DNA of 64,000 nt. Source: Nodosilinea sp. WJT8-NPBG4. GTDB lineage: Bacteria > Cyanobacteriota > Cyanobacteriia > Phormidesmidales > Phormidesmidaceae. The stretch covers positions 1 through 64,000 of the forward strand of contig JAHHHQ010000048.1 in assembly GCA_019359285.1 (NCBI GenBank), written 5' to 3'. How positions within the stretch are numbered: the stretch's first letter is position 1; each line of letters opens with the position of its first letter. Shown here piece by piece: positions 1,815-32,391 of the stretch. A program made the translations under genes and the position numbers. The notes beneath the pieces are model-generated. The model was not told the origin of the DNA and made no database searches. It saw nothing but the letters and a program-made list of their open reading frames with translations.

Positions 1815-3476
1815 CTATTCGATATCCCCCAGCAACATGAGCTGGCGAATATTGGGATCTGTGGTCGGGGCTTGGGGCTTGCGTCGCCGCGACTTCGGCG
1901 GCAGCACATTCACACGGGCCACAAACCAGGTGCGCAGAGCCGCCGCCTGCACTGCATCTAAGTCAGCCAACGGCAGCGCGGCGGGGAAGAGATCGGCGAT
2001 CGCATCCTCAGCCCAAGCCACCTCACCCCCATGGACTTCAACCCCAAAGGGCGTCAAATCAGTTGGCATCTGCGCTAGGTGAGGCAGCAGGTTGCTAGCG
2101 TTGAGAAACTTGCCCCGCTGGGCTTCGAGCAGTTTGACCCGGCGCTGGCGGGCCGCTTTGTAGTTCAAAATTGGGGCGGGGTAGCCTGAGAGAGTGGGCG
2201 GACTACCGAGCTGCCCCGGAGGCACATCCGCCAGCTCTGGCACCCAGCGCTTGATGAACTCACCATCGGGATCGCAGCGATCGACCGCTACCTGGCCAGG
2301 GTTGTAGATGCGCGTCCAGGTTTTATCGATGCAGTGGGTCACCCCCGACTGCATGGCCCACTGGTAATGGTCGATGGGGCAATCACCGTCTATTAAATGA
2401 CGCATAAAGTGCAGCGCCCCATAGCGCCAGTCGATGCCGCCCAGGTTGCTGAGAAAGCTGGCATAGATAGCGCGGGTGCGAAAGTTTAGCGCCAGATAGC
2501 CTCCGGTAGCCTGCAAACAGCGGGCGGCGGCATCCACAATCGGGAAGCCGGTGTGGCCGGTCTGCCAGGCCTGGTAGAGATCGGGGTCAAAGGCCCAGCC
2601 ATCGTCATCAAAGGTGCGGTAGAGCGATCGCAGCTCTAGCTGAGGCAGATATCGAAACCGCTGGGTAAATCCGTTGCCCCACCGCAGGCGCGAAATTAAT
2701 TGTTGATGGCTGCGGCGAATCCGGTTGTCGCCAAAATCGGGCGCGCTGCGGATGGTTTGCACACATTCTCGCACCGAGATCACCCCAAATTTGATGTGGG
2801 GGCTGAGGCCCGTGGTAGCCTCGGCGCTGGGGTAAGACAGCTGCCAGTAATAGCGATCGGCCTTGTCGGTCAAAAAGCTTTGCAGCAGGGCGCGGGCAGC
2901 GGCGGTGCTGGCGGGGGGAATAGGCTTTTCGTCGGCCCGGTGGCCCAAGGCATCCAGGGCAGGTAACGGATCACTGGGGATCTCTGGCGGTACGGAAATC
3001 TGTTGGGGCGTGGGCACCAAGGGTTGGCCCATCTCCCGATGCCATAGCTCACGATATTGAGGGTAGGGGACAAGGTCGGCGGCGCTGGCGGCGGGCTCGA
3101 ACCAGCGAATTTTCATCCCCCGCTGAGCGAGAGCCTGGTTGAGGCGAGCATCACGCACCCGACCATAGATGCGCTCGACATCGGTGTGGGCATAGATGCC
3201 GTCGGCGTCGGTTTCTTTGACCAAATCGGGCAAGACCTGAACCGGATCGCCCGATCGCACAATCAGCCGTCCGCCCAAAGCTTTCAAGTCTGCATCTAGA
3301 GCGTGCAGGGCGGCCAGCAAAAACGCCACCCGAGCCGAGCCAGTTTCAGGATGGTGCAGCAGGGCGCGATCGAACACAAACACCGGCACTACCAGCCCCC
3401 GCCCAGCCGCCCGCAGCAGCGGCTCATGGTCAGAAATGCGCAGGTCGCGGCGAAACCAGACAATGGTTTTGTTCAT
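1815..3476 (-). CDS. Photolyase/cryptochrome family flavoprotein
   Basis: This is a 553-residue light-driven DNA repair enzyme or a related blue-light receptor. The N-terminal antenna domain opens with the family hallmark IVWFRRDLRISDHEPL. The FAD-binding helical domain shows TGFPIVDAAARCLQATGG, then GIDWRYG, then the FMRHLIDGD segment and DPDGEFIKRWVPEL. Tryptophans near the flavin that usually carry electrons appear kept (in YQAWQTG, IDWRYG and HYQWAMQ, the last near residue 373). The segment after it, GVTHCIDKTWTRIYNP, departs from the usual class I wording (ASTGTDAAPYFRIFNP), so it may belong to a less studied branch. I therefore do not choose between CPD photolyase and cryptochrome. It is monocistronic and convergent with the xylanase gene, with stops about 27 bp apart. 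Confidence 0.87.
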   Translation of the reverse strand: MNKTIVWFRRDLRISDHEPLLRAAGRGLVVPVFVFDRALLHHPETGSARVAFLLAALHALDADLKALGGRLIVRSGDPVQVLPDLVKETDADGIYAHTDVERIYGRVRDARLNQALAQRGMKIRWFEPAASAADLVPYPQYRELWHREMGQPLVPTPQQISVPPEIPSDPLPALDALGHRADEKPIPPASTAAARALLQSFLTDKADRYYWQLSYPSAEATTGLSPHIKFGVISVRECVQTIRSAPDFGDNRIRRSHQQLISRLRWGNGFTQRFRYLPQLELRSLYRTFDDDGWAFDPDLYQAWQTGHTGFPIVDAAARCLQATGGYLALNFRTRAIYASFLSNLGGIDWRYGALHFMRHLIDGDCPIDHYQWAMQSGVTHCIDKTWTRIYNPGQVAVDRCDPDGEFIKRWVPELADVPPGQLGSPPTLSGYPAPILNYKAARQRRVKLLEAQRGKFLNASNLLPHLAQMPTDLTPFGVEVHGGEVAWAEDAIADLFPAALPLADLDAVQAAALRTWFVARVNVLPPKSRRRKPQAPTTDPNIRQLMLLGDIE

Positions 3477-3843
3477 GGCGTTTCAGACTCAGCCACGGCG
3501 GCCCCCAAGGAAACAGAGAGGAACAAGACGGCACTTCTCAAACCGTAACCAAAAAACAACTGACCTACCTGATTGCCAAATAGTATTCTTGTACTATACT
3601 TGAGTCTATCAATTTCCCACTCTCTTCGCTGCCACCTAGGCCCCCATTTTGGGCCTATACCCCTCGGCAGCCAATTCCCTCTAGCCAGCGGCACTCGCCC
3701 TTAGCGTAGAACATCTGCGCTTAAGGATCCTCGGGCTGATTCTTTGCCTCAAGCAAAGTCGCAAGGCCAGCGGCTCTACTCTGGCTGCCCGGCAGAGTAG
3801 GGCACCCCCTTATCCCAAACGGTAGACAGCAAAGGTCAACGCC
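3477..3843. other. Intergenic region with two stem-loops
   Basis: This 367-base gap separates the divergent photolyase gene and the 3844 gene. Besides the promoter at 3573-3600 it contains two perfect inverted repeats: TAGGCCC at 3637-3643 with GGGCCTA at 3651-3657, and CTACTCTG at 3776-3783 with CAGAGTAG at 3793-3800. Both would lie in the 5' untranslated RNA of the rightward gene. No RNA gene was recognised. Confidence 0.45.
3573..3600 (+). promoter_or_regulatory. Sigma-70 type promoter with a palindrome in the spacer
   Basis: TTGCCA at 3573-3578 and TATACT at 3595-3600 are separated by 16 bp. The spacer and the start of the -10 box hold the perfect palindrome ATAGTA-6 bp-TACTAT at 3580-3597, placed as an operator would be. 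It points toward the gene at 3844, which would give a leader of about 240 nt. A repressor binding here is inference. Confidence 0.5.
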
Positions 3844-25543: not shown

Positions 25544-25726
25544 CTAATCAATAGCTTTCTTAACTTGATCTTTGACATCTTCTTTAGCGTGCTGAACGCT
25601 GGATTCGCCTTGCTTAGCCTTGCCTTTGGCTTCATCAGAGGTGTTTCCGGTCACTTTGCCAGCCGCTTCTTGCGCTTTGCCTTGAATGTTCTTGCCGGTA
25701 GCTTCGGCTCTATCTTGAATACTCAT
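25544..25726 (-). CDS. CsbD-like stress protein
   Basis: This 60-residue hydrophilic, Lys/Glu/Ala-rich protein has the CsbD pattern (RAEATGKNIQGKAQEAAGKVTG, then a DEAKGKAKQ repeat and amphipathic end). CsbD proteins are small general-stress proteins of unknown biochemistry. A good ribosome site (GAGG, 8 bp before the ATG) is present. The 9-bp terminator just downstream shows that it is a single-gene transcript. It is encoded upstream of, and divergently from, the 1025-residue repeat protein. Confidence 0.87.
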   Translation of the reverse strand: MSIQDRAEATGKNIQGKAQEAAGKVTGNTSDEAKGKAKQGESSVQHAKEDVKDQVKKAID

Positions 25727-25924: not shown

Positions 25925-26371
25925 TTTTTTAGGAATGCTGTACTGGGTTGGGGGCGATCGCTCCCTCCGAGGGCTGATCCGCCATCGGCCATACCCTAGA
26001 CCCAGAGAGGGTTAGGCTGGCATATTATCCCCCCAAAGAATTAGGCAGTGGGATAGATGCTTTATTGGGACTAATAGAGTTTGATGTAAGCCTAGAGGCT
26101 GTATTGGTCGTCCTGAGGTATCTAGAGTTGCGACTCAGACCACTCAGATTTTTTCATTTTTTAAGTCTATTTTTTGTGTGTTTGAGCCTGGCACTGCTCC
26201 ATCGGTTTTATATCCCGAAGAGCGAAGAGCGATCGCCCGAGCTGACTCTCACACATAGCCTTCTAGTCTTTGGCAGACCAAACTGCATTCTCAGTATCTC
26301 CACTAACAGTTACTAGAAACGGGTAGACCAAGCGGCATCGAGACAGTTGCAATTCTCAAAGGAACAGTACC
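25925..26371. other. Gene-free region before the repeat protein
   Basis: About 450 bases without a supportable gene. An 83-codon open frame at 26065-26316 has no recognisable features. The region should hold the promoter of the 26372 gene; AAGGA at 26359-26363 is its ribosome site. Confidence 0.4.
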
Positions 26372-29300
26372 GTGATTGAGCACATTGGACTAAACCTATT
26401 AAGCGGCCCTCTGGCCCAGGTCGGCGCTCCAGGAGTTACCACTCCTGAAGAGGCTTCCCTAATTTTTTCTGGCCCCCAGTTTTTTATCGCCCTACTTTCG
26501 GGCGTAATTTTGGCCTTTGGCTTCCATCTTTTGCTAACCAACCTGTCGGTCGCCGCTGGCCTCACCTACATCGGTCAGTCTTCATCGAGTAGTAGCAGTA
26601 GCAGCAGCAGCTCTGGTAGCGGTGACAAAAAAATTGCCACCAAATTTGGCCTTTGGACCTTGATCACTGTCAGTTTGGCCCTTTTTTGTGCCTGCTTTTT
26701 AGCCGTTAAACTCAGCCTCTACAGCAGTGCGCTGTTAGGGGCTATTACCGGTTTGGTGGTGTGGGGCACCTACTTTTGCCTGCTGTTTTGGTTCAGCTCA
26801 ACCACCGTTGGGTCGCTGATTGGGTCAGTGGTGAAAACCGCAACCTCTAGCTTTCAGTCCCTCTTAGGGGCGGCTAGCGGGGCTGTGGGGGCCAAGATGG
26901 CCAGCAACCAGGTGATTGAGACCGCCGAGGCCACCGCCGCCGCCGTGCGCCGTGAGCTCACTGCTGGCTGGAGCGGCAACGATATCAAAGATACGCTGCG
27001 CGACTACGTTACTTCCCTCACGTCCCCAGCCTTAGATATCGCTGGGCTAGAGGCTGAGTTTGAGCGCCTGATTCACGAGTCGGACCTGACATCGCTGGCC
27101 GATCGCGATACTCTCTCCCAGCTCAATCGCGACAGCTTCGAGAAGCTGGTCAGCAGCCGCACCGACCTATCGCGCAAAGAGGCTAGCCGCATCGCCGATC
27201 GCCTCTATGGCACTTGGAACAAGGCGCTGGGCAAGGCCTCTGGCGGCGACAGCCTGGGTGAACTGGTTAACTATCTCAAGTCAGCCCACCCAGAGGAACT
27301 GTTGGCCGAGTCACTGGGCAGCCGCTTAGACGAGTTTCTTGGCGAAATGCGCCAGCAGCGCAAGGGCAAAGAGGCTAAGACTAACCCACTCAACCAGGGG
27401 CTGACCACCTTGATGGGTGTGGTGATGGGCCGAGCCGACCTCTCTGACATGGATGTGGAAAAGATCACCGAGCGCTTCAAGCAGCTCAGACACGATTTCA
27501 CCGGCCAGGTTGACACGCTCACCAGCCAGGCGAGCGGCAGCGATCGCTACAGTGTGGTCAGAGCTGACGTTGAGACCTACCTGCTCAACGCCTACCCGTG
27601 GCAGCTCAACACCCAGCGCATGCAGAAAGAGTTTTGGGATGTCATCTATGACCCCTTTGCCGATGCTGGTCTGATGCGCCAAGAGCTAATGAACCTAGAC
27701 CAGTCATTCTTCGCCGAGCTTTTGGCTTCGCGGGGGCTGCTGACCAAGAGCGAAATCGCCGAAGTTTCTCGCCAGCTCGAAGCCGTACGGCTTCAAGCCC
27801 TGGGCGAAGTTTCTGAGCGCTACCGGATCGAAGCGGCTAAGGATGCGCAGACCAAGGTCTACACTTTCCTGCGTCAAACCCCGCGCGATCAGCTGCTGTC
27901 TGAAACGGGTACCAGCGCCTTCAGCAGCCTGCTAGACGATCCCTACGCCGATGCTGACGATCTGCAAGAGCGGTTCACCCCCTTTACTTATGAGGCTCTT
28001 ACCCAGACCCTAAGCACCCGTGGCGATCTGAGCGAAGCCGAAATACAGGCTGTTGCCAGCCGTTTAGAAGGGGTGATGAACAACGTGCGGGCCGATGCCG
28101 CCGGGCTGCAATCTTCGGCCAAAGCTCGGGTTGAGAACCAGTGGATGGGGTTACAGCACTATCTGCAAAACACCAATAAAGCTGAGCTTAACCCTGAGGG
28201 CATCAAGGCCGACCTTGCTACTCTGCTCCACGAGCCCGATGCGGGTGTGCACCGCCTGCGCCAGCGCCTGGCCCAGTTCGATCGCGACACCCTGGTGCAA
28301 TTGCTCAACCAGCGTCAAGATCTCTCCGAAGCTGAGATTAACCGCACCCTCGACCAGGTTGAGTCGACCTGGTACAAGACGGTTAATGCGCCCGGCGCGC
28401 TGACGGCTCAGGCCAAGGCTAAGTACGACGAAGCTACCAGTGCGATCGAGCGCTATCTGCTCGAAACCGGCAAGCCCGAGCTCAACCCCGAGGGCATCAA
28501 GCGCGACCTAGGGCTGTTGGTGAACAACCCTCAGGCGGGCATCGGAGCCATGCGCGATCGCCTATCGGCCATGGACCGCGACACCCTAGTGCAGCTGCTC
28601 AGCCAGCGCAAGGACCTCAACGAGGAAGAAGCCAATCGCATCATTGACGATGTGCTGGGTAACATTCGCGATATTTTGCACATGCCTCAGCGGCTGGCTC
28701 GTCGGGCTCAGGCCCAGGTCGTCTCCTTTGAGACCGCTCTGGAAGACTACCTGCGCAACACCAACAAAGCTGCGCTGAATCCCGACGACATTAAGCGTGA
28801 CCTTAAGCTGCTGCTTAACGATCCTCGCCTAGGGGCCGAGCGTCTGCAAACTCGCCTGTCGAGAATCGACCGCGACACCGTTGTGGCTCTGCTGGCCCAG
28901 CGCCCCGATATGACCCAGGCCGAAGCTGAGGCTGCTGTCGATCAAGTGCTATCGGTGCGGAACCAGGTTGTGGCCCAAATTCGCAATGTGCAGGCGCGGG
29001 TTACGTCGGTTGTGAGCGGCATTATGAACCGAGTTCGCAACTACCTCGACTCCCTAGGTCGCCCCGAGCTCGACTACTACGGCATCCGCCGCGACTTGCA
29101 GCAGCTTTTGGATGATCCTCAAGCAGGCTTTGAGTCTCTTAAGGTGCGCCTCGGGCAGGTCGATCGCGGCACCCTAGTGGCGCTCATGAGTTCCCACGAT
29201 GCGATCTCAGAGACCGATGCTAACCGCATCATTGACCAGATCGAAGACGTTCGTACCAGCGCTCTAAGCAAAGCCGAACAGCTCGAACATGCGGTTGAGA

Positions 29301-29449
29301 GCCGCTTGAGCGAAATCAAGCACCAGGCCTACCAGCAGGTGGAAGACACCCGTAAAACCGCCGCTGCTGCCTCCTGGTGGATCTTTGCTACCGCTACGAT
29401 TTCAGCCATCTTTGCTGCTATCGGCGGCGGTTGGGCAGCCGGGACCTAG
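26372..29449 (+). CDS. Large membrane-anchored protein with eight ~98-residue helical repeats
   Basis: This 1025-residue protein is not recognised as a named family. It starts with GTG behind AAGGA. An N-terminal domain (about residues 28-165) has three to four hydrophobic segments, interrupted by a run of about twelve Ser near residue 72. Eight repeats follow, marked by a Tyr or Phe at residues 212, 301, 403, 499, 597, 695, 793 and 891; the last five intervals are exactly 98 codons. A full repeat reads roughly YLxNTNKAELNPEGIKxDL, LLxxPxAG, LRxRLxxxDRDTLVQLLxQR and DLxEAEANRIIDxV. The last 26 residues are one hydrophobic helix ending at the stop. The repeats are predicted all-helical and polar. 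The N-terminal domain resembles the 222-residue protein at 31723. A structural or stress role is possible but unproven. Confidence 0.8.
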   Translation: MIEHIGLNLLSGPLAQVGAPGVTTPEEASLIFSGPQFFIALLSGVILAFGFHLLLTNLSVAAGLTYIGQSSSSSSSSSSSSGSGDKKIATKFGLWTLITVSLALFCACFLAVKLSLYSSALLGAITGLVVWGTYFCLLFWFSSTTVGSLIGSVVKTATSSFQSLLGAASGAVGAKMASNQVIETAEATAAAVRRELTAGWSGNDIKDTLRDYVTSLTSPALDIAGLEAEFERLIHESDLTSLADRDTLSQLNRDSFEKLVSSRTDLSRKEASRIADRLYGTWNKALGKASGGDSLGELVNYLKSAHPEELLAESLGSRLDEFLGEMRQQRKGKEAKTNPLNQGLTTLMGVVMGRADLSDMDVEKITERFKQLRHDFTGQVDTLTSQASGSDRYSVVRADVETYLLNAYPWQLNTQRMQKEFWDVIYDPFADAGLMRQELMNLDQSFFAELLASRGLLTKSEIAEVSRQLEAVRLQALGEVSERYRIEAAKDAQTKVYTFLRQTPRDQLLSETGTSAFSSLLDDPYADADDLQERFTPFTYEALTQTLSTRGDLSEAEIQAVASRLEGVMNNVRADAAGLQSSAKARVENQWMGLQHYLQNTNKAELNPEGIKADLATLLHEPDAGVHRLRQRLAQFDRDTLVQLLNQRQDLSEAEINRTLDQVESTWYKTVNAPGALTAQAKAKYDEATSAIERYLLETGKPELNPEGIKRDLGLLVNNPQAGIGAMRDRLSAMDRDTLVQLLSQRKDLNEEEANRIIDDVLGNIRDILHMPQRLARRAQAQVVSFETALEDYLRNTNKAALNPDDIKRDLKLLLNDPRLGAERLQTRLSRIDRDTVVALLAQRPDMTQAEAEAAVDQVLSVRNQVVAQIRNVQARVTSVVSGIMNRVRNYLDSLGRPELDYYGIRRDLQQLLDDPQAGFESLKVRLGQVDRGTLVALMSSHDAISETDANRIIDQIEDVRTSALSKAEQLEHAVESRLSEIKHQAYQQVEDTRKTAAAASWWIFATATISAIFAAIGGGWAAGT

Positions 29450-29470
29450 ATTCAGAGCACCGACAGATAG

Positions 29471-29504
29471 GGGCGATCGCGTTAGTAGCGCGATCGCCCT
29501 TTTT
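29471..29504 (+). terminator. Rho-independent terminator of the repeat protein gene
   Basis: GGGCGATCGCG (29471-29481) pairs perfectly with CGCGATCGCCC (29489-29499), an 11-bp stem with a 7-nt loop, followed by five T. It incorporates two HIP1 palindromes. It starts 22 bp after the stop codon. Confidence 0.9.
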
Positions 29505-31722: not shown

Positions 31723-32391
31723 ATGTCCTACACCAATGAACCCGGCGCTTATAGAGAAGAGCCTGTTGCTTACAGCACCACTCCAGGCCAGCGCATAGCA
31801 GACGTAGCGCCCGTTGCCGTTACTGGCTACCACGACCTGGTACGCTGGGGTCCAATTATTGCCGGTCTAGTTGTGGCGATCGCCACCCAACTCGTGCTTA
31901 CTGCCTTGGGTGCGGCCGTGGGCCTCACCAATATAGCTGGCTCAGATGCTGCCCAAAGTAACGCTGGCGGCGTTGGTACTGCCGTAGGCATCTGGTCGAT
32001 TATCAGCTTGCTGATTGCCTTGTTCTTAGGCGGCTACGTTACCTCCCGCGCCTGCGGCCCCATGAACCGCAAAACCGCTTTGCTCAACGGCGCTATTTTG
32101 TGGGCAACCACCTTGGCTGTTAGCGCCTGGTTGCTTTCGAGTGGCGTGGCCGGTGCCTTTGGTCTAGTAGCCCAAGGAGCCGACGCCGTCGTTAACCAGG
32201 TACCCGCCGATGCTCTGCCCAATGCCGCTGACCCCAACGTGAGTCAAGAGCAAGCCCAAAACATTGCTGGCAATGCTGCCAAGGTTGGTTGGTCATTTGC
32301 TCTAGGGTCTCTGCTGGGCCTAGTGGCTTCTCTCGCTGGTGCCGCTACCGGTGCTCGCAGCCCCCGCGCGGTTGGCGCTCCTCCTCGTTAA
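31723..32391 (+). CDS. Multi-span membrane protein, PhnA-like/YrzE-like type
   Basis: This 222-residue protein has a polar N terminus and four hydrophobic segments: IIAGLVVAIATQLVLTALGAAVGL, then SIISLLIALFLGGYV, then AILWATTLAVSAWLL, and FALGSLLGLVASLAGAATG near the end. The first segment follows RWGP, a start seen in a broad group of bacterial membrane proteins of unknown role. The order LVLTALGAAVGLTNI, GIWSIISLLIALF, LLNGAILWATTL parallels the N-terminal domain of the repeat protein at 26372, so the two are probably paralogous there. It is monocistronic with its own terminator. Confidence 0.68.
   Translation: MSYTNEPGAYREEPVAYSTTPGQRIADVAPVAVTGYHDLVRWGPIIAGLVVAIATQLVLTALGAAVGLTNIAGSDAAQSNAGGVGTAVGIWSIISLLIALFLGGYVTSRACGPMNRKTALLNGAILWATTLAVSAWLLSSGVAGAFGLVAQGADAVVNQVPADALPNAADPNVSQEQAQNIAGNAAKVGWSFALGSLLGLVASLAGAATGARSPRAVGAPPR

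Follow-up and report, generated by a model that had tools for sequence, protein, structure and literature searches.

What is the protein encoded at 26372-29449 in this Nodosilinea contig, and what might it do? In a first-pass annotation of the window (the whole stretch of 64,000 nucleotides that was analysed) the 1025-residue product, here called P0001, was described as a membrane protein built of eight 98-residue repeats, tethered at both ends as a long helical rod, without a named family and with a suggested role in stress or in the envelope. The reading that we favour, and hold with roughly even confidence, is that P0001 would be a doubly anchored extracytoplasmic helical rod of the general or high-light stress response, located in the cell envelope (plasma or thylakoid membrane). 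New with respect to the first-pass annotation are the single-repeat relatives, the HU-like hairpin in each repeat and the recurrent stress-gene neighbours (csbD, hli, usp, yflT and YsnF/AvaK). The gene and its flanks comprise the following features:

25544 to 25726, reverse strand: csbD, divergent neighbour, general stress protein family (Pfam CsbD, 53.9 bits)
26358 to 26363, forward strand: AAAGGA, Shine-Dalgarno-like, 8 bases 5' of the GTG (from the sequence, kept in relatives)
26372 to 29449, forward strand: gene for the 1025-aa eight-repeat membrane protein P0001 (reading frame, repeat HMM, orthologues)
29469 to 29501, forward strand: terminator-like hairpin 3' of the P0001 gene, with 15 pairs and a T-rich tail
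31723 to 32391, forward strand: 222-aa protein with a related N-terminal membrane domain, without the repeats (E 3.6e-6 to P0001)

The reading frame starts with GTG, and both this codon and the AAAGGA are kept in six close relatives (with a nearby difference in one of them). The intergenic region between csbD and the P0001 gene (25727-26371) shows conserved blocks when aligned within the genus; a scan of it for sigma-70-like promoters yielded no site. The 222-aa product matches the N-terminus of P0001 weakly but reproducibly (25% over 145 residues), and its gene is kept nearby in close relatives. By this alignment it appears to retain the membrane domain alone of the P0001 layout.

The repeat array itself is far beyond chance. 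All eight Tyr or Phe codons that had been taken as markers fall in the reading frame. They specify Y, Y, Y, F, Y, Y, Y and Y at residues 212, 301, 403, 499, 597, 695, 793 and 891, each standing at the start of a module, with spacings of 89, 102, 96, 98, 98, 98 and 98 codons. The 98-residue period is borne out by a BLOSUM62 self-comparison of residues 200-1025, for which the three top lags are 98, 196 and 294. The sequence motifs quoted earlier for every repeat are clear in repeats 5-8, but not in repeats 1-4: pairwise identity is 32-46% among the former and 14-28% between repeats 1-4 and the remaining repeats. Nonetheless, an HMM started from repeats 5-8 and refined by iteration over orthologues (the repeat HMM) recovers all eight, at E-values from 1e-13 to 1e-30, with the following cores:

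26999 to 27205, forward strand: repeat 1 core, residues 210-278
27269 to 27475, forward strand: repeat 2 core, residues 300-368, the most degenerate
27569 to 27781, forward strand: repeat 3 core, residues 400-470
27857 to 28069, forward strand: repeat 4 core, residues 496-566
28154 to 28363, forward strand: repeat 5 core, residues 595-664
28445 to 28654, forward strand: repeat 6 core, residues 692-761
28742 to 28948, forward strand: repeat 7 core, residues 791-859
29033 to 29245, forward strand: repeat 8 core, residues 888-958

A membrane-anchored protein with tandem repeats might also be a surface adhesin of variable length, or a low-complexity array without fixed structure, and two relatives do depart from the number eight: L041 has ten repeats and the same-genome paralogue L002 has seven. 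These are the only exceptions: by the repeat HMM, 35 of the 37 relatives have eight copies, no more and no fewer. Moreover, the best match of each repeat in distant species is the repeat with the same number (35 of 35 proteins, at all eight positions), from which it follows that the array is ancient and fixed, that the duplications predate the spread of the sampled families and that each of the eight copies has diverged towards a role specific to its position. Such a fixed number contradicts a slipping array and is in fact its opposite, hence we give almost no credence to the adhesin interpretation.

The full-length family is widely distributed: at E <= 1e-100 it occurs in 144 of 389 genomes and 80 of 159 genera of the class sample, and at E <= 1e-3 the family is found in 36 of 194 genomes of the phylum sample. 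Full-length orthologues of similar size (about 1020-1060 aa) exist in many families, and the close relatives include Nodosilinea, Leptolyngbya, Phormidium, Shackletoniella and Tildeniella. The protein, about 1000 residues long and conserved in more than a third of the class genomes that were sampled, is without a family model, yet the number of its position-specific modules stays at eight in more than 20 genera.

Some variants were observed besides. In the ten-repeat protein (G172:C50:26479-30117) the added mid-protein stretch resembles residues 783-872, pointing to a local duplication. The paralogue (L002/L102, C48:145516-148479) lies on the window's contig and is divergent (39%), with seven detectable repeats. 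The same genome encodes a 481-aa relative (L003, G000:C2:111-1553, minus strand) in which a short, degenerate stalk joins the membrane domain to the C-terminal membrane helix, possibly an intermediate form; proteins of about 500 aa similar to it are present in other genomes of the genus.

Hydropathy agrees with the earlier claim of membrane segments at both ends, with three in the N-terminal part of the protein and a single one at its C-terminal end, each also seen as a helix in the structure model:

26474 to 26557, forward strand: membrane segment 1, about residues 35-62
26642 to 26713, forward strand: membrane segment 2, about residues 91-114
26726 to 26794, forward strand: membrane segment 3, about residues 119-141
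29363 to 29437, forward strand: C-terminal membrane segment, about residues 998-1022

The eight-repeat relatives have the same three N-terminal segments and single C-terminal segment by hydropathy. A serine run (QSSSSSSSSSSSSGSG) occupies 26576-26626, in the first loop of the membrane domain, and differs in length among close relatives. The four segments contain many small residues, as could be expected if P0001 were a transporter or channel with the repeats as a regulatory appendage of the membrane domain. We consider this quite unlikely: searches of Pfam and NCBIfam matched no transporter family, the membrane domain is small and the strictly conserved feature is the eight-repeat stalk.

On which side of the membrane the stalk lies is not fixed by the loop charges of the eight-repeat proteins themselves. 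Short, single-module homologues (see below) are more informative. Hydropathy gives the same 3+1 segments in 17 of 18 of them (the Enterococcus piece ends with its record), and their charges (mostly an acidic loop 1, a basic loop 2 and basic tails) place the module outside the cytoplasm according to the positive-inside rule. By homology the stalk of P0001 is probably extracytoplasmic as well. It is rich in L, R, D, E and Q, and only 5 of 27,940 stalk residues in 37 proteins are Cys, a near-absence that is at least compatible with an exported domain. It might be argued instead that the repeats are cytoplasmic and form a doubly anchored scaffold on the thylakoid or plasma membrane, whose amphipathic helices would bind lipid or photosynthetic complexes in an apolipoprotein- or LEA-like manner. 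The ambiguous charges of the eight-repeat loops leave room for this, the helices are long and amphipathic, and there are weak apolipoprotein-like matches (PF01442 at E 0.0017 in L018, apoE chains at E 0.25-0.8), even though these fall under the Pfam cut-off or are not significant. The hli products act in thylakoids, and hli genes are neighbours in one large clade. Given that the three N-terminal segments together with the charges of the short homologues put the stalk outside, and that the scarcity of Cys is compatible with export, the cytoplasmic scaffold seems to us possible but doubtful, and we continue with the extracytoplasmic rod.

The stalk was modelled with AlphaFold2. The full-length model, made from an alignment with seven close orthologues, has a mean pLDDT of 45; repeat 4 is its best-predicted part (mostly 70-82). 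A two-repeat model, in which repeats 1-2, 3-4 and 7-8 were added as extra rows, shows the regular helices that had been anticipated for adjacent repeats, but their packing is uncertain (mean pLDDT 60). In both separate predictions the secondary structure repeats regularly and the stalk is all-helical. Each module is predicted to have a long helix of about 45 residues that bridges adjacent modules, followed by two short helices and then by a helix-turn-helix hairpin; the second arm of this hairpin starts the next long helix. Consequently, the proposal of a doubly tethered helical rod stands as far as a regular all-helical repeat between membrane anchors is concerned; with models of such low confidence (mean pLDDT 45 and 60), we infer the rod shape and the pairing of the hairpins rather than reading them from the coordinates. 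A Foldseek search against the PDB gave no match with an E-value below 0.35, and a PDB sequence search with P0001 returned nothing significant. The best VIA-align Z, 6.7, is a value commonly seen between unrelated helical bundles, and we draw no conclusion from it.

The predicted hairpin has a counterpart in a known family. PF00216 (HU/IHF) matches P0001 with 37.2 bits (gathering cut-off 22.4, E 3.5e-9), although over profile positions 1-37 of 90 only, at the following site:

28571 to 28681, forward strand: HU-like helical hairpin of repeat 6, residues 734-770 (PF00216 positions 1-37)

In relatives the same profile matches at other repeats (e.g. repeat 1 of L014 and L018), and the HU-like PHROG_379 (DNA-binding) matches repeat 7 of P0001 (residues 830-873, E 4.4e-7). 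An HMM built from 31 cyanobacterial HU proteins scores the repeats with up to 10.2 bits, always in the register of HU residues 1-42, against at most 2.5 bits for reversed and shuffled controls. The single-repeat relatives align to HU in the same register, with an hhalign probability of 71% against 0.1% for reversed HU. No match extends into the beta-ribbon arm and saddle of HU (positions ~40-90): the similarity ends at 37-42 and predicted helices follow. As judged from these profiles the resemblance is genuine but short, and either common descent or convergence could account for it.

HU is a DNA-bending and DNA-packing protein. Hence the HU-like hairpins found in several repeats might suggest a tether between membrane and nucleoid, in which they would anchor the chromosome at the membrane by binding to HU or DNA. 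The match is confined to HU positions 1-42, with helices in place of the beta-ribbon arms, the topology argues for repeats outside the cytoplasm and the genome of the window encodes its own complete HU, which together make such a tether highly improbable.

The extracytoplasmic rod is linked to stress by its gene neighbourhood. In the window, where the first-pass annotation had noted the divergent csbD, and in close relatives this gene lies about 590-650 bp upstream in divergent orientation, and it is divergent from the orthologue in two further families too (L037, L143). One to four tandem hli (high-light-inducible) genes take this divergent position in 12 genomes of one family and in one genome of another (G005), the nearest being 386-777 bp from the orthologue. 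Their products are light-harvesting-like one-helix proteins (E 9e-13 to an LHCI chain), which score 18.3 bits with Pfam Chloroa_b-bind, below the cut-off of 22.3. Genomes with hli neighbours hold 3-11 hli-type matches in total and those with csbD neighbours 2-3 csbD genes; with so few copies, repeated adjacency by chance is unlikely. Overall, csbD or hli is divergent upstream in 22 of 78 loci, distributed clade-wise, and neither is found in the other 56. In the close relatives no conserved operon partner was seen beyond the divergent stress genes.

At L088, L093 and L095 the orthologue has three to four hli genes in tandem divergent from it, and the copies within these arrays are closer to each other than to the hli-type matches elsewhere in the same genome.

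Other neighbours are of a similar kind. A universal stress protein (usp) gene lies upstream of the L083 orthologue, and the paralogue L002 is preceded on the same strand by PsaA/PsaB-family, YflT-like stress, DUF2243 and DUF4383 genes (the latter two encoding membrane proteins). The short relatives adjoin genes for YsnF/AvaK, CsbD, DUF892, DUF2382, katE and a cation:proton antiporter. CsbD and AvaK-like proteins were up-regulated together in an alkane-overproducing strain of Nostoc punctiforme (PMC7660261). The stress association proposed earlier from csbD is thereby broadened, and we regard it as moderately supported by gene neighbourhood. A literature search with the P0001 locus tags and family names found nothing on function, expression or localisation.

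The short relatives themselves were reached by tblastn of plasmid records, where they are annotated as PhnA-like, YrzE family, TIGR04086 family or hypothetical proteins. Single-module proteins of 270-350 aa are present in Bacteroidota, Pseudomonadota and Bacillota (Spirosoma, Dyadobacter, Pseudomonas, Ewingella, Serratia, Variovorax, a Comamonadaceae bacterium, a Geminicoccaceae bacterium and Enterococcus); nine of them match the repeat HMM with 11.9-28.1 bits, against 3.9 for the highest decoy. Kinship extends over both halves: the N-terminal half aligns with the membrane domain of the P0001 family (hhalign probability 98.5, 176 columns) and the C-terminal half with repeat 8 plus the final membrane helix (98.7, 129 columns). 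An HMM of the N-terminal domain gives 4-53 bits on the short relatives, with decoys up to 3.9. The earlier statement that no named family has this layout thus holds in that no Pfam or NCBIfam family covers P0001 end to end, but not in that single-repeat relatives are widespread and the hairpin matches PF00216. TIGR04086 (NCBIfam) does not match P0001, and the Pseudomonas short form is also below its cut-off (20.8 of 30 bits). The simplest history suggested by these comparisons would be the amplification of one module to eight in cyanobacteria; the single-module form, which is frequent in the stress islands of other phyla, is likely ancestral.

The Enterococcus relative (L117, Enterococcus faecalis plasmid, 2926-3749) is cut by the end of its record and adjoins a gene for a GlsB/YeaQ/YmgE stress membrane protein; 53 Enterococcus plasmid records contain a match of this kind.

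Taken as a mechanism, the extracytoplasmic rod would work as follows. The three-helix membrane domain and the C-terminal membrane helix would hold both ends of a stalk of about 800 residues, all-helical, almost cysteine-free and composed of eight modules of about 98 residues, each with a hairpin like the HU dimerisation hairpin. On the periplasmic or lumenal face the stalk may stand as a rod or an arch, where the hairpins could pair mutually, within a single chain or from chain to chain, or could pair with clients of the protein. Such pairing might stiffen or space the membrane, or hold partners, under high light, salt or similar stress. A more specific proposal, which we think rather unlikely, is that the HU dimerisation hairpin was reused extracytoplasmically as a protein-protein zipper, with eight per doubly anchored chain lacing molecules or membranes under stress and the ancestral state kept in the single-hairpin proteins of other phyla. 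Through the link to Bacteroidota, Pseudomonadota and Bacillota, P0001 is no longer an orphan but becomes part of a cross-phylum envelope-stress family, in which the 300-350-aa single-module relatives offer a small and tractable model for the job of the module. Because of the hli/csbD neighbourhood, a role related to light or stress can be tested directly in Nostoc-type laboratory strains.

How does P0001 compare with known systems? With CsbD and the general stress regulon (sigma B-type) it shares a recurrent neighbourhood; the sequences are unrelated and the association is one of neighbourhood alone. To HU/IHF (PF00216) it is alike over about 37-42 residues in the register of HU residues 1-42, but its hairpins are without beta-ribbon arms, membrane-anchored, repeated and probably not cytoplasmic. 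As the DNA-binding arms are missing, we do not file P0001 as an HU protein. The 'PhnA-like protein' of Rhizobiales, Paracoccus and Bradyrhizobium is related in its N-terminal membrane domain (HMM up to 53 bits) and shares the 3+1 layout as well as YsnF/AvaK and DUF892 neighbours, whereas its stalk is below significance with the repeat HMM and without tandem repeats; its name is an annotation only. Proteins of the YrzE/TIGR04086 type have their parts in the order of P0001: three helices in the membrane, then a helical stalk, then a membrane helix at the C-terminus (which the truncated Enterococcus piece does not show). They too have stress-gene neighbours. Their module reads LRQTGKPxLxPxxL ... 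DRDxLVxxIxxRTGxSxxEAxxIVD and contains about 20 extra residues, and there is one per protein of 300-350 aa, against eight in the roughly 1025 aa of P0001. With eight modules against one, P0001 is a variant of this superfamily rather than an ordinary member, and as the single-repeat relatives share the whole layout it can be seen as their eightfold-expanded version.
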